Positions 14,863 through 27,987 of a stretch of 64,000 bases of DNA are shown here, piece by piece (position 1 is the first letter of the stretch; each line of letters opens with the position of its first letter). The position numbers were made by a program, and so were the translations under genes. The DNA is from Flavobacteriaceae bacterium LYZ1037 (GTDB lineage Bacteria > Bacteroidota > Bacteroidia > Flavobacteriales > Flavobacteriaceae). A model generated the notes under the pieces. It had not been told where the DNA came from. It made no database searches and saw only the letters and a program-made list of their open reading frames with translations. The stretch spans positions 496,001-560,000 of the forward strand of contig QFWS01000002.1 of NCBI GenBank assembly GCA_003144015.1, read 5' to 3'.

Positions 14863-16218
14863 ATGTCAAACGACATTAAGATTAAAAAAGGTCTGGACAT
14901 TAAACTTAAGGGTGAAGCTGAAAAAGCAACAGAAAACGCTATAATTAGCAACTTCTGCACTTTGAGACCTGAGGACTTCCATGGAGTAATTCCAAAACTA
15001 TTAGTGAAAGTTGGAGCTAAAGTAAAAGCAGGTGAACCTGTATTTTACGATAAATCTAATGAAGCTGTAAAATTTGTTTCACCAGTTTCTGGTGAAATAT
15101 TAGATATTCCTCGTGGAGAAAAAAGAAGAATATTAGCTATAAAAATTCAAGCTGATAAAGTACAATCGTTCCAAGATCATGGGAAATTTGATGTTAATTC
15201 TGCAAATGCAAATAGCGTTAAAGCTCATTTGTTAGCAACTGGATGTTGGCCATTTGTAAAACAACGTCCTTATGATGTTATTGCAAACCCAAATAAATCT
15301 CCTAAAGCGATTTTTATTTCAGGTTATGCAAGTGCACCATTAGCTGCAGATTTAGACTATACTTTAAAAGGTAAAGAAGCAGAACTTCAAGCTGCAATTA
15401 CAGCATTAGGAAAATTAACAGAAGGTAAAGTGCATGTGTCTGTTGCAAAAAACGGGAACTCCCCTTTTTCTGGATTAACAGGTGTAACTTTACATACGGT
15501 TTCTGGACCACACCCTTCTGGGAATGTAGGAACACAGATTAATAAAATTGACCCAGTAAATAAAGGAGAAGTAGTTTGGACTATAAATGCCCAAGACCTT
15601 GTTATTATTGGTGAATTATTATTAACTGGAAAATTCAATGCAGAGCGTATTGTTGCTTTAGTTGGATCTTCAATTAAGAAACCAAGATATTTTAGAACCA
15701 AAATTGGTAGTGAGATTGCGACGATGGTTTATGATAATGGCGTTGAAAAAGATGGTAACGACCGTATTATTTCTGGAAACGTCTTATCAGGAAAACAAGT
15801 AAAACCTGATGGTAATTTAGATTATTACAGCAATGTAATTACCGTTATCCCTGAAGGAGATGATTATGAGTTTTTTGGTTGGAACAAACCAGTTTTTAAT
15901 AAAATATCACAATCAAGAGCGCTTACATTTTCATGGTTAACACCAAATAAAAAATTCGATTTAAATACCAATACAAATGGTGAACATAGAGCTTTTGTTT
16001 TAACTGGTAATTACGAAGAAGTTTTTCCTTTAGATATTTATCCATTGCAAATATTAAAAGCTTGTATGTATAGCGATTTAGATGAAATGGAAGCTTTAGG
16101 AATGTACGAAGTTGCACCAGAAGATTTTGCTTTAACAGAATTTGTTTGTGTGTCTAAGCAACCTCATCAAGAAATTATTAGAAAAGGATTAGACGTAATG
16201 ATTAAAGAAATTGGATAA
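14863..16218 (+). CDS. nqrA: Na+-translocating NADH:quinone reductase subunit A
   Basis: This is the peripheral cytoplasmic subunit of the Na+-pumping NADH dehydrogenase. The 451-residue length is normal. The N terminus (IKIKKGLDIKLKGEAEKA) and the biotinyl-like segment around residues 45-80 (KVGAKVKAGEPVFYDKS) are typical of NqrA. It is the first gene of the six-gene nqr operon, driven from the promoter at 14790. The 86-base gap to nqrB contains a duplicated segment and a short hairpin. Confidence 0.96.
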   Translation: MSNDIKIKKGLDIKLKGEAEKATENAIISNFCTLRPEDFHGVIPKLLVKVGAKVKAGEPVFYDKSNEAVKFVSPVSGEILDIPRGEKRRILAIKIQADKVQSFQDHGKFDVNSANANSVKAHLLATGCWPFVKQRPYDVIANPNKSPKAIFISGYASAPLAADLDYTLKGKEAELQAAITALGKLTEGKVHVSVAKNGNSPFSGLTGVTLHTVSGPHPSGNVGTQINKIDPVNKGEVVWTINAQDLVIIGELLLTGKFNAERIVALVGSSIKKPRYFRTKIGSEIATMVYDNGVEKDGNDRIISGNVLSGKQVKPDGNLDYYSNVITVIPEGDDYEFFGWNKPVFNKISQSRALTFSWLTPNKKFDLNTNTNGEHRAFVLTGNYEEVFPLDIYPLQILKACMYSDLDEMEALGMYEVAPEDFALTEFVCVSKQPHQEIIRKGLDVMIKEIG

Positions 16219-16288
16219 TTATTCATTTTGTGAAGAGAAATGAAAAATAACATGTTATTCATTTTTTTCTTTTTAGAAGAAATGAAAA
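16219..16288 (+). repeat. imperfect tandem duplication with hairpin between nqrA and nqrB
   Basis: TTATTCATTTT occurs at 16219-16229 and again at 16255-16265. AGAAATGAAAA occurs at 16236-16246 and again at 16278-16288. A ~36-42 base unit has therefore duplicated. The junction forms a 7-bp palindrome (AATAACA/TGTTATT, 16246-16259) followed by a T-rich stretch, which could act as a weak attenuator. Confidence 0.55.
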
Positions 16289-16304
16289 TATTAAAAAAAG
16301 AACC

Positions 16305-17504
16305 ATGGGTTTAAAAAGCACATTACATAATTTAAAAGAAAAGTATAAAGGAACCAAAATGGCTCCTGCGTTTAACGCACTTCATACTTTTTTATACTTA
16401 CCAAATGAGACCACACATAATGGAACTCATATTAAAGTAGCAGACGATTTAAAACGTACCATGAACATAGTTATTATGGCTATGGTACCATGTTTAATCT
16501 TTGGGATGTTTAATGCTGGTTATCAGCATTTTGCAGCCTTCGGTACACCAGTAGAATTTTTGTCTTGGGATGCCTTCTACGTTGGATTGATAAAAATATT
16601 ACCTCTAGTAATCGTTTCTTATGGTGTAGGTTTAGCCATCGAATTTTTATTCGCTGTTATAAACAAACATGAAGTTGAAGAAGGATACTTAGTTACTGGA
16701 ATGTTAGTGCCTCTTATTGTACCAATCGATACACCACTTTGGATGCTTGCTGTTGCAATTGCCTTTGGTGTTGTTATTGGAAAAGAAGTTTTTGGAGGAA
16801 CAGGAATGAATATCTTAAATCCTGCTTTAACCATACGTGCCTTTCTATTCTTTGCATATCCAACTTGGATGTCAGGAGATAAAGTATGGGTGCATGGAGC
16901 AGTAGAAAGAGATCAATTAATTGCAGCAGGAGAAAAACTGGACGCCATCTCTGGTGAAACAATACTAGGTTCTTTAGCTCAAGGGAAAGAAGTTGTCTAT
17001 TCAATATCAGACATGTTCTACGGTTTTATACCTGGTTCGGTTGGAGAAACTTCCACGTTATTGATACTATTAGGAGGTTTGTTCTTAATATTCACAAAAA
17101 TAGGAAGTTGGAGAATCATGTTATCCTCTGTTGTTGGAGCTTTAATAATGGGCTTAATATTTAATGGACTTGTTAATGCAGATATTATTTCAGAAGGAAG
17201 CAAATTTTATGGATTAATGAGTACACCATTTTGGGAGCATTTATTAATTGGAGGTTTTGCATTTGGAACCGTCTTTATGGCTACAGATCCTGTAACAGGT
17301 TCACAAACAAATAAAGGGAAATGGATTTATGGATTCTTAATTGGGTTTTTATCCATCATGATTCGTGTATTCAACCCTGCATATCCAGAAGGTGTTATGT
17401 TAGCTATATTGTTAATGAACGTATTTGCACCTACAATCGATCATTATGTGGTTCAAGGTAATGTGAAACAAAGAATGAAACGTCTTAAAGTTAAAAACGC
17501 ATAA
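16305..17504 (+). CDS. nqrB: Na+-translocating NADH:quinone reductase subunit B
   Basis: This integral membrane subunit carries covalently bound FMN and forms part of the Na+ path. The 399-residue protein has about ten hydrophobic segments. The flavinylation motif reads DAISGET, where Thr219 is the expected FMN acceptor. The usual SGAT is changed to SGET here. GGTGMNILNPALT and the C-terminal DPVTGSQT segment are also typical. It is two bases from nqrC, and its partner enzyme ApbE is encoded at 28365. Confidence 0.96.
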   Translation: MGLKSTLHNLKEKYKGTKMAPAFNALHTFLYLPNETTHNGTHIKVADDLKRTMNIVIMAMVPCLIFGMFNAGYQHFAAFGTPVEFLSWDAFYVGLIKILPLVIVSYGVGLAIEFLFAVINKHEVEEGYLVTGMLVPLIVPIDTPLWMLAVAIAFGVVIGKEVFGGTGMNILNPALTIRAFLFFAYPTWMSGDKVWVHGAVERDQLIAAGEKLDAISGETILGSLAQGKEVVYSISDMFYGFIPGSVGETSTLLILLGGLFLIFTKIGSWRIMLSSVVGALIMGLIFNGLVNADIISEGSKFYGLMSTPFWEHLLIGGFAFGTVFMATDPVTGSQTNKGKWIYGFLIGFLSIMIRVFNPAYPEGVMLAILLMNVFAPTIDHYVVQGNVKQRMKRLKVKNA

Positions 17505-19705: not shown

Positions 19706-21016
19706 ATGATAGTATTAGCAGCAAGTACATTAGGAACAATCATAATAACCGTAATCGCTTTCTTAATAATTACATTGTTATTAGTTACATTATTATTGGT
19801 TGTAAAACAAAAATTATCACCTTCAGGTCCCGTAAAGATCTTAATAAATGGTGAAAGAGAAATTGAGGTTGGCTCTGGAGATAGTTTGTTATCTACATTA
19901 GGGTCTCAAAAAATATTCTTACCATCGGCTTGTGGTGGTGGTGGAACATGTATTCAATGTGAATGTCATGTGCTTTCAGGTGGAGGCGAAGCACTTCCTA
20001 CTGAAACCCCTCATTTTACACGTAAAGAATTACAACATGGAGCACGTTTGTCCTGTCAGGTAAAAGTGAAACAAGACATGGAAATTACCATTCCTGAAGA
20101 AGTTTTCGGGATTAAAAAATGGGAAGCAACCGTAGTTCGTAATTATAACGTAGCCTCATTTATTAAGGAATTTGTAGTTGAAATCCCTGAAGATATGGGT
20201 TATAAAGCTGGTGGTTATATTCAAATTGAAATTCCTCCTTGCGAGATTAAGTTTCAAGATATGGATATTACTGCCCATCCTGAAGAACACGAAACTCCAG
20301 ATAAATTTCAAGCTGAATGGGATAAATTTAAACTTTGGCCATTAGTAATGAAAAACACTGAGACTGTTGAAAGAGCTTATTCCATGGCTTCTTATCCTGC
20401 CGAAGGACGAGAAATTATGTTAAACGTTCGTATTGCAACTCCTCCTTTCGATCGTGCTAAAGGTGGATGGATGGATGTCAATCCTGGGATTGCATCTTCA
20501 TATATATTTAACCAAAAACCAGGAGACAAAGTAACTATTTCCGGTCCTTATGGTGAGTTCTTTATCAATGAGTCTGAAAGCGAGATGCTTTATGTTGGAG
20601 GTGGAGCAGGAATGGCACCTATGCGTTCGCATTTATACCACTTATTCAAAACCTTAAAAACAGGTAGGAAAGTAACGTATTGGTATGGTGGACGTTCGAA
20701 ACGCGAGTTATTCTACTTAGAACACTTTGCTGAATTAGAGAGAGACTTCCCTAACTTTAAGTTCTATTTAGCATTATCTGAGCCAATGCCAGAAGACAAC
20801 TGGAAAGTTAAAGAAAATATTGATGCTCCAGGAGATGGGTTTGTAGGGTTTATTCATAACTGTGTAATTGAAAACTATTTAAATCATCATGAAACTCCAG
20901 AGGATATCGAATTGTATTTCTGTGGACCACCATTAATGAACCAGGCTGTTCAGAAAATGGGTGAAGATTTTGGCATTCCAGATGAGCATATTCGATTTGA
21001 TGACTTTGGTGGCTAG
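19706..21016 (+). CDS. nqrF: Na+-translocating NADH:quinone reductase subunit F
   Basis: This is the NADH-oxidising entry subunit. One N-terminal membrane helix (residues 8-35) is followed by a 2Fe-2S ferredoxin domain ([10 protein letters not shown] near residue 73 and a fourth Cys near 114). A FAD domain follows (RAYSMASYP), then an NADH domain ([14 protein letters not shown], with FCGPPLMNQ near the C terminus). The product is 436 residues from the ATG at 19706. An open frame to 19697 would overlap nqrE and begin before the usual MIVLA start. A terminator follows at 21084. Confidence 0.96.
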
Positions 21017-21044
21017 GCGATAATCACTATTTATATTATAAATA

Positions 21045-21068
21045 TCATTCTGAGCTTGTGCGAAGAAT
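21045..21068 (+). repeat. dispersed 'CTGAGC' intergenic repeat, copy 1
   Basis: The segment TCATTCTGAGCTTGTGCGAA plus GAAT resembles copies at 21194, 43459 and 52028. The shared core is CTGAGC, about five bases, then a GTCGAAG-like block. Short intergenic elements of this style are common in flavobacteria. Confidence 0.5.
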
Positions 21069-21083
21069 ATATAATACAAAAAT

Positions 21084-21109
21084 AAACCCAACACGAAAGT
21101 GTTGGGTTT
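21084..21109 (+). terminator. intrinsic terminator of the nqr operon
   Basis: A perfect 11-bp stem (AAACCCAACAC / GTGTTGGGTTT) with a GAAA tetraloop and trailing T residues, 68 bases past the nqrF stop. Confidence 0.92.
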
Positions 21110-21193
21110 TTATTTTAACATACTTTAGTTAGATGTTTTGTTATTTCTATTTTGTCAAGTTATCCCATAATGAGATTCTTCGTTGCTTATAGC

Positions 21194-21216
21194 TTATCTT
21201 GAGCGACAGTAGAATG
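21194..21216 (+). repeat. dispersed 'CTGAGC' intergenic repeat, copy 2 (degenerate)
   Basis: TTATCTTGAGCGACAGTAGA followed by ATGG is a diverged relative of the copy at 43459. An ATGAGATTCTTCG block lies just before it. No gene is seen between 21017 and 21285; the gap holds the terminator and these repeat remnants. Confidence 0.4.
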
Positions 21217-21285
21217 GCTATGTCGGAATAACAAGTTGTTTTTTATATGTTCAAAAGAGATTGTATATTTTTATAATGAAATTGA

Positions 21286-22038
21286 TTATTGTTTATCAAC
21301 ATTAATTTCTAGATTAATCAATTTAAGTATTGTTACATTTTGTGCTCTTACTTGGTTTAGTTCTATAACAGCTTCTCTAATTCGAGCATATCTGTTAGAG
21401 ATATAATCTTCAAAAAGAGGGTCTTGTATAAGACTTTTATAATCCGATTGAAATTTACTTTTTCCTAATTCTGCTCTGTCAGCACTTCTATAATCTACAT
21501 TTCTAATGTGTTTTTCTAATACTTTCTCATTCCACCTAGTATTATGTGCACGATTTTCATTTTCTTTAGCATCAGCTACAACGTCTTGCCAATTGTAAAT
21601 TAATATTTTTAAACTATCATTATGGATTAAATTAATATCTCCAGAAGACACACCAGATCTTAAGGCACCGTTTAAGGGGTCAAAAGTCCAAGTCCAACTT
21701 GAGTTTTGAATTAATATTCTCAATGAGTCTCTATGCCAATTTTTTATTTTTGATGCATCAAGATGTAATAATTTTAATGAATTTTTAACAGCTAAATTGT
21801 CATAGTAAAGTACAGAATCTAGTTGCAATAAGTTAAGTTTAAACTCCGATTGTAAAGATTTAAGTAAGGCATTTTTTCTATGAAATGCCTTTCTGTTTTC
21901 ATTCCAATCATTAACTTGAAGCGCAATCAAAATTCCAATCACTACAAGAATAATTTCGCCTATGGCGTATTTAAGATACTTGCCTGTTTTCCCTTTTTGC
22001 ATTAGGTTGTATCGTATTTTTCTAAAAAATTTAATCAT
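21286..22038 (-). CDS. DUF6090-type membrane-anchored protein (paralogue 1)
   Basis: A 250-residue protein that is the last gene of the minus-strand DUF6090 array. Residues 1-47 are the shared module: a basic start (MIKFFRKIRYNLM), one membrane helix near 25-42 (YAIGEIILVVIGIL) and the VNDWNE end. The rest is variable and helical, rich in Asn, Asp and Lys. It still has the second shared signature, here SGVSSGDINLIHNDSLKIL. Topology suggests a small cytoplasmic basic tip and a large extracytoplasmic domain. The function is unknown. It follows ggt after 23 bases. Confidence 0.8.
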   Translation of the reverse strand: MIKFFRKIRYNLMQKGKTGKYLKYAIGEIILVVIGILIALQVNDWNENRKAFHRKNALLKSLQSEFKLNLLQLDSVLYYDNLAVKNSLKLLHLDASKIKNWHRDSLRILIQNSSWTWTFDPLNGALRSGVSSGDINLIHNDSLKILIYNWQDVVADAKENENRAHNTRWNEKVLEKHIRNVDYRSADRAELGKSKFQSDYKSLIQDPLFEDYISNRYARIREAVIELNQVRAQNVTILKLINLEINVDKQ

Positions 22039-22061
22039 TAGAAATTGTTATTAATTTTATT

Positions 22062-23759
22062 TTAATACCCAATGGCTCCACCTTCTGGACGAGAAGAATC
22101 CGAAGCTCCAGTAATTATATTGTTTTCTGGATTTATTGTAATTCCCATTAAGGCGCCTAAATAGCTTGTTGCTTTTAATGAATGTCCCATAGCTTCTAAT
22201 GCCTTTCTTGTATCTGGAGACATTAAATCAACTTCATAAGTAAGAACATCTGGTAACCATTGATGATGAATTTTCATAACTTCAATAGCTTTATCAATAG
22301 GCATATTAAATTCTAAAACATTTAGAGTGGTTTGAAAAACCGTATTGATAATGGTTCGTCCTCCAGGACTTCCAATAATTAAATATGGTTTGCTATCTTT
22401 TGCAACAATAGTAGGAGTCATACTGGAAAGCATACGTTTTTCTGGAGCTATTAAATTAGGTTTTGTACCAATTAACCAGCCTGAGTCTGTAAAACCAGGA
22501 ATTGGATTAAAGTCTCCCATTTCATTATTAAATATAAAGCCAAGATCTTTGGAACCCATTTTAACACCATACCAATTTTCTAGTGTGTAAGTAAGTGAAA
22601 CAGCATTTCCGTCTTTATCGATTACCGAAAGATGGGTGGTGTTTTTGCCATCATAAATTTGTCCAAATTTAGTAGAGTCGCTAACTGAAGCTTTTGCCAT
22701 ATTTATATTTTCAAACCTATTTTTAGCATGTTCTTTAGATGTTAATCTATCTAAAGGCATATCGAGATTAAAATCTGGATCACCTAAAAATTCAGCTCTA
22801 TCTGCAAAAGTTCTACGCATGGCTTCAGCAAGTATGTGAACATATTCGGTTGAATTAAATTCAATATTATTCCAATTAACTAACTCCATAAGGTTCATCA
22901 TTTCAATAAGTGCTACACCTCCAGAACTTGGTGGAGGCATACCATAAATATCATAACCTTTGTAAGTACCTTTTATGGGTTCACGCTCTATAGCATCATA
23001 CTTAGCTAAATCCTCTCTTGTAATAACACCTCCATTAGCAGCCATGTAATCTTCAATTTTCTTTGCGACTTCACCTTTATAGAATCCATCTCGTCCATGG
23101 TCTCTAATTTGTTTTAAAGTATTGGCTAAAGCAGGTTGCTTCCATATGTCTCCTGGTTGAGATATTTCCCCCTTTTCGTTATTAAAATAGGTTGTCATAA
23201 AAGGGAATTCATCTGCTTTACTTCTAAAATATAATGCTTCACCATACAAAGTCCAATTGAATTCAAATCCGTTTTCGGCTAATTTAATAGCAGGTTGTAC
23301 TAAGTCCTTCCAGGGCAATTTCCCATATTTCTGATGTGCTAAATACAAGCCAGCAACTGTGCCAGGAACACCTACGGCTAATAATCCTTTATGGTTACTA
23401 TCGTCTTTAATTTTGCCGTTTTCATCTAAAAACATGGTTTCTGTAGCAGCTAAAGGTGCTTTCTCTCTAAAGTCGATGGTTGTTGTTTTTCCTTCAGAAT
23501 TCATAAAAACTATAAAGCCACCACCACCTATATTTCCAGCTGTTGGATGCGTAACAGCCAAAGTAAATGCCGTTGTAATACTTGCATCAACAGCATTGCC
23601 TCCTTGTTTTAAGATATCAACTCCTGTTTGAGAAGCTATTTTACTTGCAGTAACCACCATGCCGTTTTTGGCATAGGATTGTGCAAATGAAATGGATGAA
23701 TTGATAAAAAGAGAAAGACCTAAAAGGATAGTAAAAAGGGGATTCAGAGTTGTTTTCAT
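22062..23759 (-). CDS. ggt: gamma-glutamyltransferase (glutathione hydrolase) proenzyme
   Basis: A periplasmic Ntn-hydrolase that cleaves gamma-glutamyl bonds, for example in glutathione. The product is 565 residues from the ATG at 23759, where a signal peptide starts (MKTTLNPLFTILLGLSLF). The open frame to 23786 is not needed. The self-cleavage site is N|TTHLSVID, so Thr374 becomes the nucleophile of the small subunit. PSSGGVALIEMMN and GSPGGRTIINT are also family blocks. It lies between DUF6090 genes with spacers of 23 and 53 bases on the same strand and is probably co-transcribed with them. Confidence 0.94.
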   Translation of the reverse strand: MKTTLNPLFTILLGLSLFINSSISFAQSYAKNGMVVTASKIASQTGVDILKQGGNAVDASITTAFTLAVTHPTAGNIGGGGFIVFMNSEGKTTTIDFREKAPLAATETMFLDENGKIKDDSNHKGLLAVGVPGTVAGLYLAHQKYGKLPWKDLVQPAIKLAENGFEFNWTLYGEALYFRSKADEFPFMTTYFNNEKGEISQPGDIWKQPALANTLKQIRDHGRDGFYKGEVAKKIEDYMAANGGVITREDLAKYDAIEREPIKGTYKGYDIYGMPPPSSGGVALIEMMNLMELVNWNNIEFNSTEYVHILAEAMRRTFADRAEFLGDPDFNLDMPLDRLTSKEHAKNRFENINMAKASVSDSTKFGQIYDGKNTTHLSVIDKDGNAVSLTYTLENWYGVKMGSKDLGFIFNNEMGDFNPIPGFTDSGWLIGTKPNLIAPEKRMLSSMTPTIVAKDSKPYLIIGSPGGRTIINTVFQTTLNVLEFNMPIDKAIEVMKIHHQWLPDVLTYEVDLMSPDTRKALEAMGHSLKATSYLGALMGITINPENNIITGASDSSRPEGGAIGY

Positions 23760-23812
23760 TGGTAATGTTTTTGTTGATATGTGCATTAGTTGTGAAGTGC
23801 GAATTTATTTAA

Positions 23813-24532
23813 TTATTTTATTTTCGTTTTAATAGCTTCAATTAACACGAGTGCTTCTTCTTTATATTGCCTTAAATACCATAAATAACCATTGTAATAT
23901 ATGTCGTAAAATGAAATTATACGATTTCTATAATCTATAGATGTAAGTACGTATATGGTAAGTTCTTTATTAAACTTTTTATTTTTAAAATCTTCATACC
24001 AAGGCATTTTTTTAAAATAGAAATAATTTTCATAGAAATCTTTAGCAACCTCTTGCAATGCGACATCGATTTCAGTGTTAAAATAAGCGTAAAAATCTAT
24101 AACGCTAAACGAAAGACTATCTTGATTTGAGTTTAAGAAGGCACTATTTTCCTCTAATAATTTTAGTCCTCTTGTATTAAGTCTTATATCTGGAAAGCCA
24201 CCTAAAATAGATGTACAAGGACTACAGTTCACGTAATCATCGTAGGTCATCTCTTTATTAATAACACGCTTAAATAAACTATCCTGTTTTTTTTCTATAG
24301 TGAGTAGCCAATCAATTGTTTTAACGTCAGCTTCTAAGTCACTTTTTATAATGGTATAAATGCCATTAATAGTGTCATTAGTTTTACGTTTTTCATTCCA
24401 ATTATTTATTTGAAGCGCAATAAGAATTCCAATAACTACTAATATGATTTCTCCAATGGCATATTTGAAATATTTGGATGTTTTGTTTTCCATAAGAAGG
24501 TTTTGACGGATTTTTCGAAAGAATTTAATCAT
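23813..24532 (-). CDS. DUF6090-type membrane-anchored protein (paralogue 2)
   Basis: A 239-residue protein with the shared N-terminal module (MIKFFRKIRQNLLMENKTSK, then the YAIGEIILVVIGIL helix and INNWNE). The C-terminal part has a CSPC pair at about residues 103-106 and a divergent version of the second array signature around LNTRGLKLLEENSAFL. The many aromatic residues near the end (YYNGYLWYLRQY) suggest a packed helical domain outside the membrane. It lies 25 bases after the TPR paralogue. The function is unknown. Confidence 0.8.
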   Translation of the reverse strand: MIKFFRKIRQNLLMENKTSKYFKYAIGEIILVVIGILIALQINNWNEKRKTNDTINGIYTIIKSDLEADVKTIDWLLTIEKKQDSLFKRVINKEMTYDDYVNCSPCTSILGGFPDIRLNTRGLKLLEENSAFLNSNQDSLSFSVIDFYAYFNTEIDVALQEVAKDFYENYFYFKKMPWYEDFKNKKFNKELTIYVLTSIDYRNRIISFYDIYYNGYLWYLRQYKEEALVLIEAIKTKIK

Positions 24533-24557
24533 TTATTATTTGTCTTGGTATCTGTTT

Positions 24558-25703
24558 TTATTTCAATTCTGAAAGTGCTTTTATTGCAGATTCATTACTA
24601 GGATTTAACTCTAAAGATTTTTGGTATGCCTTTATGGCATTTTCCTTGTCTCCTATAAGTAATAAGCACTCGCCATAACTATCATATGTATTAAAAGCAT
24701 CTGGATATAAATCTATATTTAGTTTAAAAAGCTTTAAGGCTTCATTATTTTGCTTCATGGTATTCATAACAAAATAACCCAATGCGTTGATGTAATTTTC
24801 AGAAATATCATATTCTGGTGCTCCTCTGTCTTGGTTTTTAGCCACAACAATAATTTCATCAATGCTCTTGCCTTCTTCTAAAAGCGTTTCCAGTTTTTTG
24901 AGACGTTTAATAACAGTTTCAATATTCTCGTACGGATTGCCTAACTCTTTATTAATTAGCGTGAATAACGTGTTAATGTTCTCGATTATGGCTTGAAATC
25001 CTTTTAATTGGTCACGCTCTGTAAAATCTTTCAAGCCATACGCTGCATTGAGAATTAGAGCGATTTCAGAGAAGTTATTGGCAACTTTTAAATCTGTGTA
25101 AAGTTGATTTGATTGTGGGCTTGCACCTTTTAGTAATAACGTATTGGGGGAGTATCCTAGTTTTATTGCGCTTAAAAATTCCTTTATAAAATTATCATTA
25201 TTACCATAGGCTTGGGCTATAGTATTGTTTTGCATATTTTTTAAATCAATCAATTTATTTCTGATTTCCGAGGGTAGTAATTTAATGTCACCAGTAGTTT
25301 GTAGCGTTTCAATAGTATTTGAATTGAATTGTAGATAGGCAAATGTATAATTAAGTTTAGCTGCGCTCATAACAAGTGCTTCTGGGGTTTTTTGATTTGG
25401 AAAGGCTGCTACAAATTCATTATACAAAGCTATATTAGAATTAAGCGTATTAATTTGGTTATTAATAGACTTATAGTCCTTGGCTAAATCTTGTAAAACT
25501 TGCTTGTAATAGTTGTTTCTAATGTCTTCACTTTTTCTAGCTTCATTCCAATTATTAATTTGTAAAGCAATTAGAATCCCAATAACCACGAGAATGATTT
25601 CGCCTATGGCGTATTTTAGGTACCTGCCTGTCGGCAAGGCAGGCTTGTTTGTTTTATTTTGATTCAAGAGGTCGTATCTTATTTTTCTAAATAACTTAAT
25701 CAT
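24558..25703 (-). CDS. DUF6090-type protein fused to C-terminal TPR repeats (paralogue 3)
   Basis: This is the longest array member at 381 residues. The usual N-terminal module (MIKLFRKIRYDLLNQNKT, helix, INNWNE) is interrupted at residues 20-26 by KPALPTG. That insert is encoded by a palindromic element at 25623-25643. A variable helical domain with the array signature (TIETLQTTGDIKLLPSEIR) follows. From about residue 300 come two tetratricopeptide-like helices pairs (ALGYFVMNTMKQNNEALKLF, then YGECLLLIGDKENAIKAYQ). This suggests the extracytoplasmic domain binds a partner. The function is unknown. Confidence 0.8.
   Translation of the reverse strand: MIKLFRKIRYDLLNQNKTNKPALPTGRYLKYAIGEIILVVIGILIALQINNWNEARKSEDIRNNYYKQVLQDLAKDYKSINNQINTLNSNIALYNEFVAAFPNQKTPEALVMSAAKLNYTFAYLQFNSNTIETLQTTGDIKLLPSEIRNKLIDLKNMQNNTIAQAYGNNDNFIKEFLSAIKLGYSPNTLLLKGASPQSNQLYTDLKVANNFSEIALILNAAYGLKDFTERDQLKGFQAIIENINTLFTLINKELGNPYENIETVIKRLKKLETLLEEGKSIDEIIVVAKNQDRGAPEYDISENYINALGYFVMNTMKQNNEALKLFKLNIDLYPDAFNTYDSYGECLLLIGDKENAIKAYQKSLELNPSNESAIKALSELK
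25623..25643. repeat. palindromic element inserted in frame in a DUF6090 gene
   Basis: CCTGCCT (25623-25629), loop GTCGGCA, AGGCAGG (25637-25643) form a perfect 7-bp GC-rich stem in an otherwise AT-rich gene. The paralogues lack it. It accounts for a 7-residue insertion (KPALPTG) just before the membrane helix. Confidence 0.75.
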
Positions 25704-25746
25704 AATTTATAGGTTTTAATACCATAGTAGTAAGCTGTCTTCTTTA

Positions 25747-26490
25747 CTAAAAATGGCTTATTTCATTTTCTATTGCTATAACAAGAGATTCACATTCCTT
25801 AATAGCGATTTCGTAATAAGAAATCTCAAACTTACGCAGTGCAATGGTTTCAGCTAGTAAATTTTTATATTCGTCATTGTCAAATAGTTCTGTATAATTT
25901 ATTGGCAAGGCGTATTCATCATCGCTAGGAGACCAAGATTCAGGAAATATTTTACGAAATAGTTTTATATGAATCGGTAATGTGGTATTTATAAATGCAA
26001 TATTCCACTGATTATTTTCTGTGTGAAGTAATTGGAATCGCTTTTCAAATATTTTCACAATTTCTTTGCGCAAACTATCATTGGATATCAAGTCTAACCC
26101 TGTTGATTTCAATTGCTCAAAAGTAGAAAATTCTATTTCTGGCCGTGAAAACCAAAAATAACTTCCAAAGCAAACCTCTAATTGAGGGTCATAAGGTTTT
26201 TTGTTTTCTATATAATCCAAAATGGTTTCATTATAATGCATCCATCTGATGTCGTCAATTCGTGCTTCTTGTATGTTTTCTTTGGTTTGTTTTAAAGAAT
26301 GTGCAATTTCTTTAAGCTTTATAACTTCTTGTTTGGATAACTTGTTGTCTTCGTTCCAGTTATTAATAGAAAGGGCAATAAGAATCCCAATAACGACTAG
26401 GACGATTTCACCAATGGCATATTTAAAGTACTTGCCTGTTTTTCCTGTTTCCATGAGGTTGTAGCGTATTTTTCTAAAGAATTTGATCAT
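25747..26490 (-). CDS. DUF6090-type membrane-anchored protein (paralogue 4)
   Basis: A 247-residue protein with the shared module (MIKFFRKIRYNLMETGKTGK, the helix YAIGEIVLVVIGIL, then INNWNE). The second signature is well kept as STFEQLKSTGLDLISNDSLR. The region between is rich in charged helix (KLKEIAHSLKQTKENIQEAR). It is eight bases after paralogue 5 and 43 bases before paralogue 3, so operon membership is clear. The function is unknown. Confidence 0.8.
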   Translation of the reverse strand: MIKFFRKIRYNLMETGKTGKYFKYAIGEIVLVVIGILIALSINNWNEDNKLSKQEVIKLKEIAHSLKQTKENIQEARIDDIRWMHYNETILDYIENKKPYDPQLEVCFGSYFWFSRPEIEFSTFEQLKSTGLDLISNDSLRKEIVKIFEKRFQLLHTENNQWNIAFINTTLPIHIKLFRKIFPESWSPSDDEYALPINYTELFDNDEYKNLLAETIALRKFEISYYEIAIKECESLVIAIENEISHF

Positions 26491-26498
26491 ACAAATAA

Positions 26499-27287
26499 TT
26501 ATTTGTTTTGAATTTTATTAATTTCATCTAGCATAAGTTGGCACAGTTTACGTTGTTCAATTATAGTTGTCAACCCAACTTTAATTCCTGACATATAATA
26601 CCGAAGTTCTTCTAATAAAACGGAGTTGCTTGTTAAATGATCTAAGATGAGCTTACTTTCTATTTCATTAATAAAAGGTTCACAATCTTTAAGAATTTGT
26701 GTGTCACCTTCTGTTACATGACAATGTTCCCACATATAATTTTGAACTTTTGTTGGAATGAGTCCACGTACCATTTTGCGATATGGAGGCTTAATGCCAA
26801 CTGTATGGTTGTATCTTTGAAGACCACCTCCATGATAATAAGAGAGGTTATTTCTTAAATCTACGCTTTGAATAAGTAAGAGTTCTCCCGAACTTTTTAA
26901 TTCTTCATATGTTGATGTAGTAGCTATAAAAGGCCAAATTTGACTTGCATGAAAAAAGGAAACTAAAATTTCCCATTGACTCTTTGGTTTTACATCATCT
27001 CCTTCAGCATAGGCAAGTGCTAAATTTCCATAGTCGAAAACTTTAGTGTAAAAAGCGATGTTTAAGTCAAGTTGTATTAAATCAGAAGTAATGTTTTCTT
27101 GCAATCTTTCAATATAGACTTGTTCCTTTTTTTGTTCTTTTCTACTCTCATTCCAATTATTTACTTGAAGTGCAAGTAAAATACCTATCATTACCAATAC
27201 AATTTCTCCAATGGCGTACTTAAAGTATTTTCCTGTTTTATTTTCCATTAGGAGGTTTTGACGGATTTTTCTAAAGAATTTAATCAT
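26499..27287 (-). CDS. DUF6090-type membrane-anchored protein (paralogue 5)
   Basis: A 262-residue protein with the shared module (MIKFFRKIRQNLLMENKTGK, the helix YAIGEIVLVMIGIL, then VNNWNE). It has the clearest copy of the second signature, STYEELKSSGELLLIQSVDLR. A Cys-containing segment WEHCHVTEGDTQILKDC is unusual within the array. Its start codon overlaps the stop of a 38-codon upstream gene (27280-27396) by eight bases, so the two are translationally coupled. The function is unknown. Confidence 0.82.
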   Translation of the reverse strand: MIKFFRKIRQNLLMENKTGKYFKYAIGEIVLVMIGILLALQVNNWNESRKEQKKEQVYIERLQENITSDLIQLDLNIAFYTKVFDYGNLALAYAEGDDVKPKSQWEILVSFFHASQIWPFIATTSTYEELKSSGELLLIQSVDLRNNLSYYHGGGLQRYNHTVGIKPPYRKMVRGLIPTKVQNYMWEHCHVTEGDTQILKDCEPFINEIESKLILDHLTSNSVLLEELRYYMSGIKVGLTTIIEQRKLCQLMLDEINKIQNK

Positions 27288-27396
27288 TGCTTTCTTCTGT
27301 ATTTTTTTGATCTTTTCTATATCTAGAAATTAACCGAAATACGATGCGTAAAATAAGAGCAAATGCTATTATATTGATGATGGTTTTAGTATCCAT
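27280..27396 (-). CDS. 38-residue single-helix membrane microprotein
   Basis: A short frame read by hand: start ATG at 27396 (MDTKTIINIIAFALILRIVF), then RLISRYRKDQKN and an acidic end (TEESND), stop at 27280-27282. Residues ~5-22 form one membrane helix followed by a basic stretch. The last eight bases (ATGATTAA) overlap the start of the next DUF6090 gene, which is strong evidence that it is translated. It belongs to the DUF6090 array. No family is known to me. Confidence 0.65.
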   Translation of the reverse strand: MDTKTIINIIAFALILRIVFRLISRYRKDQKNTEESND

Positions 27397-27445
27397 ATGT
27401 TTTGTTTTTTATAATAATTACTGTTCTTATTAAGTAGTTTAATAT

Positions 27446-27637
27446 TTAACCTGCTTTCCCATCGCCATCAATATCTTTTACTAAATGTGTTTCTAAGGCA
27501 ATTAATGTTTTTTTAAGTAAGACTTTTGTGTTGGCTAATTCTTCTTCTAAATGTTTTACACGATCTTCGACGCTATCAGCCTGATTTTTTTGCTTTTCTA
27601 ATTCATCTTGTTGTAATAAGTCCCAAAATATTCCCAT
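27446..27637 (-). CDS. 63-residue coiled-coil microprotein with acidic DxDGDG tail
   Basis: It starts MGIFWDLLQQDELEKQ, continues as a heptad-rich helix (residues ~12-48, VEDRVKHLEEELANTKVLL) and ends KDIDGDGKAG, which resembles a half EF-hand or dockerin calcium loop. There is no membrane helix. It lies in the DUF6090 array, 37 bases after the short DUF6090 gene and 49 bases before the microprotein at 27396. The amphipathic helix suggests it oligomerises or binds a neighbour. The function is unknown. Confidence 0.72.
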   Translation of the reverse strand: MGIFWDLLQQDELEKQKNQADSVEDRVKHLEEELANTKVLLKKTLIALETHLVKDIDGDGKAG

Positions 27638-27674
27638 GGTTTATATGTTTATTTACTATTTAAATCTGTATCTA

Positions 27675-27869
27675 TTAATTCAATAAATTTTTTAGATAAT
27701 TTCGTTCAATACTTCTATGTTGTTTGGCAGTATTCCAATTGCTTACTTGTAGTGCTAAAAGAATGCCTACCATTACAAGAAGGATTTCTCCAGCCGCATA
27801 CAAAAGGTATTTACTAAATTTATTTTCCGCCAAAAGGTGTTGACGAATTTTTCTAAAAAATTTTATCAT
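27675..27869 (-). CDS. truncated DUF6090 protein (N-terminal module only)
   Basis: A 64-residue product containing just the shared basic start (MIKFFRKIRQHLLAENKFSK), the membrane helix (AGEILLVMVGILLALQV) and SNWN, then 20 residues and a stop. The other members have 210-380 residues. No continuing frame was found after the stop, so this is a true short form or an old truncation and not a simple frameshift. It heads the minus-strand array. It may be a decayed gene or a functional anchor-only variant. Confidence 0.65.
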   Translation of the reverse strand: MIKFFRKIRQHLLAENKFSKYLLYAAGEILLVMVGILLALQVSNWNTAKQHRSIERNYLKNLLN

Positions 27870-27872
27870 TCA

Positions 27873-27889
27873 CTTACAAGGGTTGTAAG
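27873..27889. other. hairpin just upstream of the DUF6090 array
   Basis: CTTACAA, GGG, TTGTAAG form a perfect 7-bp stem that ends four bases before the first array start codon. It would cover the translation-initiation region of the leading gene, or it could be an operator. Confidence 0.35.
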
Positions 27890-27975
27890 AAGGTGAAAAT
27901 GTATTGATAGCTTTGGTTGGTTTAGCATTTAAAGTTAAACATTTTTTAATTCTAGTACAGACAAATAAATAATAT

Positions 27976-27983
27976 TAATTTTG
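27976..27983 (+). promoter_or_regulatory. -7 promoter element of the 28 kb gene and apbE
   Basis: TAATTTTG matches TAnnTTTG and ends only four bases before the ATG at 27988. Transcription would begin at or within a few bases of the start codon, implying a leaderless mRNA. Confidence 0.55.
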
Positions 27984-27987
27984 CACC

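Follow-up and report, generated by a model that had tools for sequence, protein, structure and literature searches.

Arrays of DUF6090 genes with a constant membrane anchor and changing gene content in Flavobacteriaceae: a possible recombining repertoire of envelope recognition proteins

A minus-strand array of DUF6090 genes next to the nqr operon

The 64,000-nucleotide (nt) stretch of the Flavobacteriaceae bacterium LYZ1037 genome analyzed here (the window; contig QFWS01000002.1, positions 496,001 to 560,000) contains, at 21286-27869, a compact array of genes for membrane proteins of the Pfam family DUF6090 (PF19578). These proteins join a nearly invariant anchor to a very divergent outer domain, and their genes appear to be exchanged, gained and lost one at a time. 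As the initial annotation had described, the array consists of nine open reading frames (ORFs) on one strand with short or overlapping spacers: all nine lie on the minus strand, separated by 8 to 49 nt apart from a single 8-nt overlap. The block is flanked by the nqr operon on the plus strand, which ends at 21016 with nqrF, and by an ORF of 125 amino acids (aa) followed by apbE. The nine ORFs are:

21286..22038, minus strand: DUF6090 protein, 250 aa (PF19578, 55.5 bits; AlphaFold model m5f684cb0fa79)
22062..23786, minus strand: ggt, gamma-glutamyltransferase (PF01019, E 5e-160, and TIGR00066)
23813..24532, minus strand: DUF6090 protein, 239 aa, with the most divergent outer domain (PF19578, 35.8 bits; AlphaFold model m1dd74c679c65)
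24558..25703, minus strand: DUF6090 protein, 381 aa, with TPR at the C-terminus
25747..26490, minus strand: DUF6090 protein, 247 aa (PF19578, 36.1 bits)
26499..27287, minus strand: DUF6090 protein, 262 aa (PF19578, 46.4 bits)
27280..27396, minus strand: tm38, 38 aa, with a single hydrophobic stretch, overlapping the neighboring DUF6090 gene by 8 nt
27446..27637, minus strand: cc63, 63 aa, a coiled coil as judged by sequence
27675..27869, minus strand: apparent N-terminal DUF6090 remnant, 64 aa (19.1 bits, under the cut-off)

The window's genome (3.19 Mb) holds 38 matches to the DUF6090 profile in Pfam, so the constant first ~47 residues recognized in the initial annotation are no chance likeness. 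That annotation counted six proteins with the shared anchor; five of them exceed the family cut-off of 23.5 bits (32.2 to 55.5 bits), and the sixth is the truncated 64-aa ORF. Its top match at the same locus in the genus, at 69% over 62 aa, is a full-length gene that adjoins the 125-aa ORF in a sister genome (L104:8768-9556, in G003), and the short ORF looks like the leftover of a full-length DUF6090 gene. Anchor-only ORFs of 46-64 aa are present in several arrays (window 27675-27869, L016:7567-7734, L023:13074-13256 and L061:9243-9383), and they are either recombination remnants or microproteins.

Among the DUF6090 members of the window, only DUF6090 and TPR pass Pfam cut-offs, and nothing passes in NCBIfam. 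Pfam names the family without a function, and neither single-gene turnover nor small companions form part of its description. A text search of open-licence PubMed Central found no paper naming DUF6090, PF19578 or IPR045749, and none on arrays of this kind.

The outer domains belong to one divergent family with a common predicted layout

The C-terminal domains in the array look unrelated to one another, and the initial annotation had presented them as such. Yet they are homologous: when the outer domains of the window's genome are combined with those of 79 public loci, 292 of 313 (including at least one false ORF, window 55045) fall into a single BLAST cluster. Confirmed matches numbered 557; they were ranked by similarity to the first gene of the window, and the best 80 gave these 79 distinct loci (L023-L101). 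The outlier in the window, 23813..24532, joins the family through iterative search. Judged by sequence comparison, then, the seemingly unrelated domains are one very divergent family. A loose second signature noted earlier in these domains also proved to be a real, family-wide column preference; among the 292 aligned relatives it reads F/Y, P (50%), L (52%), S/N, S/T, G (73%), L/I, I/L, N (64%), L/I (95%), R/K and L/I.

The AlphaFold model of 21286..22038 has a mean predicted local distance difference test score (pLDDT) of 94.3 and main helices at residues 2-14, 18-91, 141-168 and 207-249, and that of 23813..24532 (mean pLDDT 91.8) has the same helix layout despite a very different outer domain. 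In both models, helix 2-14 is followed by a single helix, 18-91, and then by a bundle whose final helix could, by its length, run back along the stalk. This agreement between the two predicted structures favors the common extracytoplasmic core that had been supposed for the family. Each of the six window members has one hydrophobic segment (19-residue windows starting at 20-34) and none later, which would place the leading part of the long helix across the membrane and leave the remainder as the stalk. Some members carry extra C-terminal modules, namely TPR (window 24558), ankyrin repeats (L026) or DUF6197 (L059).

The product of 24558..25703 also has an in-frame insert of palindromic look, NKPALPTGR, in the linker ahead of the membrane helix. 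Similar inserts between the cytosolic tip and the membrane helix (KPALPAGR, LSAGQAG, PNDSGGRAG) were counted by eye in roughly 23 of 421 ORFs and sit at a nearly constant position, with examples in L015, L073, L081, L084 and L113 besides the window.

The anchor is held constant at the protein level

Residues Y21, Y24, A25, G27, E28, L31, G35, I36 and A39 all round to 100% in the 292 aligned relatives, where the ORF filter behind the alignment required G35, limited A39 to A/S and partly required R9. Under a second filter, which leaves G27, E28, G35 and A39 free but requires both tyrosines and LV, all four residues are present in 393 of 393 ORFs.

Such constancy could come from selection on the protein or from copying between genes. 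For 30 paralogues of the window's genome, we compared synonymous codon identity with that expected from codon usage, and found 0.54 against 0.56 for codons 1-10, 0.54 against 0.53 for codons 11-20, 0.52 against 0.53 for codons 21-30, 0.42 against 0.38 for codons 31-40 and 0.68 against 0.58 for codons 41-47, the last being somewhat above expectation. Because synonymous identity is near the codon-usage expectation, the anchor copies must be old over most of their length and kept alike by selection at the protein level. The same values led us to reject gene conversion as the general cause of the constancy; local exchange is occasional. The conservation of a membrane helix with a buried glutamate hints that the helix touches a shared partner or associates with itself.

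A pilin-like N-terminus was considered and rejected. In type IV prepilins the cleavage-site glycine is at -1 and the glutamate at +5, whereas Gly27 immediately precedes Glu28 here.

Array genes appear to turn over one at a time

Array members were found by regular expressions, which recovered 30 in the loci of the window's genome as against 38 by Pfam. The 421 ORFs include two of another family (window 55045 and L053 8513), without which there are 419 ORFs and 259 instead of 260 neighboring pairs. All 259 pairs of neighbors less than 400 nt apart are co-directional, and 113 overlap, most often by 8 or 4 nt. The commonest overlap, 8 nt, is found in 54 of the 259 pairs, for example at window 27280-27287; it would be made possible by the shared MIK start (ATGATTAA), with the next gene's start giving the stop codon.

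Among 73 pairs of members with outer domains at least 60% identical, a few of them within one genome, a collinear DNA match was found in 72. Of these, 70 have the 5' edge of the homologous block no more than 150 nt from the start codon; the 3' edge falls in the interval from -30 to +200 nt around the stop codon in 62, earlier in 9 and later in 1. The 3' edges are bimodal: 35 are within 30 nt of the stop and 26 at +100 to +200, a position that corresponds to the end of the constant part of the following gene. Blocks were confined to one gene, with no reach into the neighbors past these limits, in 69 of 72 cases. An orthologous neighbor was found in 0 of 52 comparisons for adjacent DUF6090 genes versus 275 of 404 for ordinary genes at the same loci (Fisher p 8e-24; this and all other p-values are rough). 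The initial annotation had named a lack of conserved gene order as evidence against a system, and such a lack was found in part: the arrays do persist, but their order is not kept.

The anchors give further signs of exchange. In a set of 74 pairs, which contains one false pair (left out of the 73 above and maybe also present in a 147-pair selection set), 7 show greater divergence in the anchor than in the outer domain (p < 0.01, uncorrected). Protein identity is lower in the anchor than in the outer domain in only 10 of the 74, and synonymous identity in 54. In L054/L066, nt 1-169 match the other genome's upstream paralogue at 85%. Anchor DNA at least 90% identical ahead of unrelated-looking outer domains is found in 5 of 156 adjacent pairs versus 10 of 65023 between-genome pairs (Fisher p 2e-10), in 2 of 794 other same-locus pairs and in 0 of 445 pairs from different loci of the window's genome. 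The simplest reading is that the constant stretch serves as a site of homologous recombination.

The same site differs across the genus

Within eight genomes of the genus (G000-G007; sites L102-L108), nqrF and the 125-aa ORF were found in all eight, and the filling between them differs (21017-27987 in the window). G000, G003 and G007 have DUF6090 genes, ggt, cc63 and tm38 in this gap; G004 has ggt and a large exported-looking protein, with no DUF6090 gene found there; G001, G002, G005 and G006 have other cargo. In G002, G005 and G006 we noted a module with a sigma-factor-like gene (named by eye), a gene of ~245 aa and an exported-looking protein of ~1080 aa. The DUF6090 copy number across these genomes is 38, 18, 2, 51, 1, 0, 0 and 18, the genome with 1 copy being 75% complete. 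Where present at the site, cc63 (92-97% identical to the window copy in the two sister genomes), tm38 (71-87%) and ggt (86-93% in G003, G004 and G007) change little across the genus. Because G004 has ggt without a DUF6090 gene found there, ggt looks like a resident of the locus and not a part of the DUF6090 system. The outer domains of the window, by comparison, show at most 37% identity to any member in the G000 loci or at the sister genomes' same site; the closest seen, for window 26499, is 61% identical (L034:3042-3836, on a contig of a metagenome-assembled genome, MAG).

Beyond the genus, DUF6090 genes lie beside nqrF in other genera too (L023, L039, L048, L085, L086). The relatives of the window's DUF6090 proteins are mostly from Flavobacteriaceae, and in a draw of 199 genomes of this family 119 have DUF6090, with a maximum of 93 first-look candidates in one genome, 16 of them scored. 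One locus, L089, places DUF6090 genes in a MAG assigned to Gammaproteobacteria, and its contig may have been binned wrongly. An exported-looking protein of ~125 aa that carries an LPDPLEAGW-type motif and, by eye, a stretch resembling a cupin is found near arrays or cc63 at four loci (L104:1690-2076, L039:6753-7154, L112:2703-3077 and L116:7221-7601), and its L104 copy has a DUF6090-like start, MIKFFRHI. In a distant relative, a parallel family with a different tip, KEKWPEYILEILVITIGILGA, is mixed into the DUF6090 array (L120:14579-15346, 16088-16816 and 16813-17493); the one member scored reaches 16.6 bits for DUF6090, under the cut-off.

Two small proteins co-occur with DUF6090 genes

The coiled-coil protein cc63 is present in 12 of the 199 family genomes, one copy each, and all 12 are among the 119 with DUF6090. 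It occurs in 8 of the 10 family genomes with at least 30 DUF6090 candidates versus 4 of the 189 others (Fisher p 4e-10), genomes being ranked here by first-look candidates, of which at most 16 per genome were scored as matches. Among DUF6090 genomes alone, those with cc63 have more candidates (Mann-Whitney p 2e-6). The phylum was sampled with a draw of 395 genomes: 14 contain a strong cc63 match, all within the 56 that have DUF6090. Four of the 18 genomes matched in that search were taken as noise, their matches scoring 21-28 bits and lying within larger reading frames (425-911 aa), and none of the four has DUF6090. In total, cc63 was found in 26 genomes of three families, one copy each and with DUF6090 in every one, given that the two draws overlap by two and that two sister genomes were added. 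Within the genus, it is in the genomes with 38, 51 and 18 copies and not in those with 18, 2, 1, 0 and 0.

At the family loci that were fetched, cc63 lies less than 2.5 kb from a DUF6090 gene in 10 of 11 cases, and within about 150 nt in 7; at phylum-draw loci a DUF6090 gene is within 1.9 kb in 5 of 12. Eighteen aligned copies have 26 invariant positions, with an MGxFWDLxQQ start and a DIDGDG-like end, and the 17 others are 57-97% identical to the window copy. More distant copies differ at some of the invariant positions; their starts include MGIFFDL (L126-L130), MGLFFDL (L131), MGLFWNL (L121) and MGIFWEL (L124). In the copy at L034:1185-1376 a stop codon replaces a tryptophan common to the 18 aligned copies, which could reflect a broken gene or an assembly error; a DUF6090-like start directly follows this copy.

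Strong matches to tm38 (58 bits or more) were found in 5 of the 199 family genomes, all five of which also have cc63; another 8 of the 13 genomes in this search, at 17-20 bits, were taken as noise. The gene directly follows cc63 in the window, L104, L108, L109, L113 and L119, one gene separates the two in L048, and 80 kb separates them in G160. Arg17 of tm38 is kept in 4 of 4 aligned copies.

Discussion

Our tentative interpretation is that the DUF6090 arrays form a recombining repertoire: recognition proteins facing the periplasm that all use the same membrane module and have small partners in common. This reading seems to us quite possible though short of probable. Each member would consist of a short basic amphipathic helix, a membrane helix with the invariant G27, E28, G35 and A39, a stalk of ~45 residues and an antiparallel helical bundle. 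By the positive-inside rule, the tip would be cytosolic and the bundle periplasmic. The constraint on the constant tip and membrane helix makes them a candidate docking or assembly module common to all members, and the same ~140-nt stretch would supply the matching sequence by which cassettes of one gene are swapped, acquired and dropped. We infer that homologous recombination caused the block edges, the lost neighborhoods and the anchor swaps seen in some pairs. The variable bundles may recognize differing periplasmic ligands or proteins, as sensor bundles do, and turnover would be favored because the ligands vary. In large-repertoire genomes, cc63 and sometimes tm38 may be shared partners of the constant module, their location, contact and output being presumptive. 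The role would probably lie in recognition at the envelope or in its protection, for which a large repertoire that changes quickly is an advantage. A more specific version, 'one hub, many receptors', would have dozens of interchangeable bundles on the invariant module read out by single-copy cc63, tm38 serving as a helper; the recombination that keeps the repertoire in flux would occur in the very sequence that encodes the module. In this full form we think it unlikely. One conceivable contact, provided both residues lie at the same membrane depth, is a pairing of Arg17 in tm38 with Glu28, which is close to where the membrane helix begins.

Several observations weigh against the recombining repertoire. 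The seven pairs with an apparently swapped anchor are uncorrected for about 148 tests and share sequences, and four of them pass solely on synonymous sites. Anchors reach 90% identity in 10 between-genome pairs as well, and the neighbor comparisons and pairs are non-independent. Outer domains are under purifying selection, with a median ratio of nonsynonymous to synonymous rates (dN/dS) of 0.18 over 45 pairs, and no gene-wide positive selection or other sign of an arms race was seen in the dN/dS of these pairs. As for the small partners, cc63 is missing from 107 of the 119 DUF6090 genomes of the family draw and 42 of the 56 of the phylum draw, and so is not required; G001 has 18 DUF6090 copies and no cc63. 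The 14.5-19.5 kb surrounding cc63 yielded no DUF6090 gene at 7 of the 12 phylum-draw loci, and at six of these seven cc63 sits beside asnS/pnp-like housekeeping genes (named by eye). Part of the link between cc63 and DUF6090 may come from shared ancestry. Finally, matches in the PDB (designed bundles, FAT domains, OspC and chemoreceptor sensor bundles; Z 8.5-12.2) are at the level of any helical bundle.

What else could the arrays be? The main rival for their role is a periplasmic immunity repertoire, in which each bundle neutralizes a toxin delivered by a competitor. Large, fast-turning, variable and probably periplasm-facing arrays would suit such a function, and the rAID systems of Bacteroidales, arrays of rapidly evolving orphan immunity genes, offer a precedent (PMC12247911). 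Such arrays are marked by an associated recombinase gene and by recognizable immunity domains, SUKH for example; among the ORFs of the window array, the one array checked for this, there is no recombinase gene, and Pfam and NCBIfam find no SUKH-type or other known immunity domain in its DUF6090 members, which instead have a constant membrane anchor. Nor does DUF6090 go with type VI secretion: in the family draw it is present in 13 of 22 TssC-positive genomes versus 106 of 177 others, although a secretion system need not accompany orphan immunity. Purifying selection on the outer domains also counts against immunity, and independent immunity proteins would not be expected to keep an identical membrane helix; we hold this explanation to be unlikely. 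Somewhat more doubtful still is that the anchor is merely a signal-anchor and the arrays a lineage expansion without a common partner, with cc63 and tm38 as clade markers. The many DUF6090 genomes without cc63, and the seven phylum-draw loci where cc63 has no DUF6090 gene nearby, fit this explanation, but a buried glutamate with glycine, alanine and tyrosine at ~100% over near-saturated synonymous sites is unexpected for ordinary signal-anchors, and cc63 was never seen without DUF6090 across its 26 genomes and three families.

The traffic in gene cassettes might itself be the main point, the arrays being acquisition platforms with DUF6090 genes and adjoining enzymes as passengers. The single-gene blocks and unconserved neighbors agree with this, as does the varied cargo beside the arrays: the 96 proteins sampled there cover 116 Pfam families, among them beta-lactamase-type, glyoxalase, RidA and amidohydrolase. 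A single dominant enzyme partner was looked for beside the arrays and rejected, with at most 4 of the 96 proteins in one family, and neighbor clustering gave no family at more than 6 loci. Against mere passenger status, DUF6090 genes are under purifying selection, and the window-array ORFs include no recombinase-like gene. Phage or plasmid mobility was rejected as well: window 21286 is unmatched in phage and plasmid collections, and viral contigs gave 95 pattern matches with the window alignment, 0 of them confirmed. We consider the cassette explanation improbable. Least of all do we expect a fixed multi-subunit envelope complex of these nine products. The initial annotation had proposed a multi-component envelope system, and the constant anchor with diversified outer domains, the operon-like packing and the link to the microproteins survive of that proposal; a fixed machine is mostly refuted by unconserved composition, as copy number (0-51) and members vary widely among close relatives, order is kept in 0 of 52 comparisons and G004 has ggt at the locus with no DUF6090 gene found there.

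Among known systems, the four-helix sensor domains that chemoreceptors and histidine kinases carry in the periplasm (MCP2201, PcaY_PP, Vc1313, PilJ, Adeh_2942) likewise place an antiparallel bundle on a membrane helix, with Z 8.6-9.7, but these values lie inside the range of unrelated bundles, of which designed ones reach 12.2. Chemoreceptor-type sensors have two membrane helices and a cytoplasmic signaling domain, whereas the window members have one hydrophobic segment and no signaling domain in Pfam. Foldseek returned no match at E <= 0.001, only generic helical likeness, and the best hit in a sequence search of solved structures (E 0.054) is at chance level. Models of defense systems gave nothing convincing for the window members, the best being an unnamed candidate at E 4e-4 over 27 residues. 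Rhs- and contact-dependent inhibition (CDI)-type polymorphic proteins set a constant part beside exchangeable variable modules, and integron arrays consist of single-gene cassettes. Unlike the former, the window members have no toxin domain in Pfam or NCBIfam; unlike in the latter, the shared DUF6090 stretch encodes protein and is conserved at that level.

If the recombining repertoire is correct, its members are a large and as yet unnamed class of variable envelope proteins in Bacteroidota, whose diversity would come from single-gene shuffling over a conserved membrane anchor. The small proteins cc63 and tm38 predict a common partner site and make the function of the family testable.

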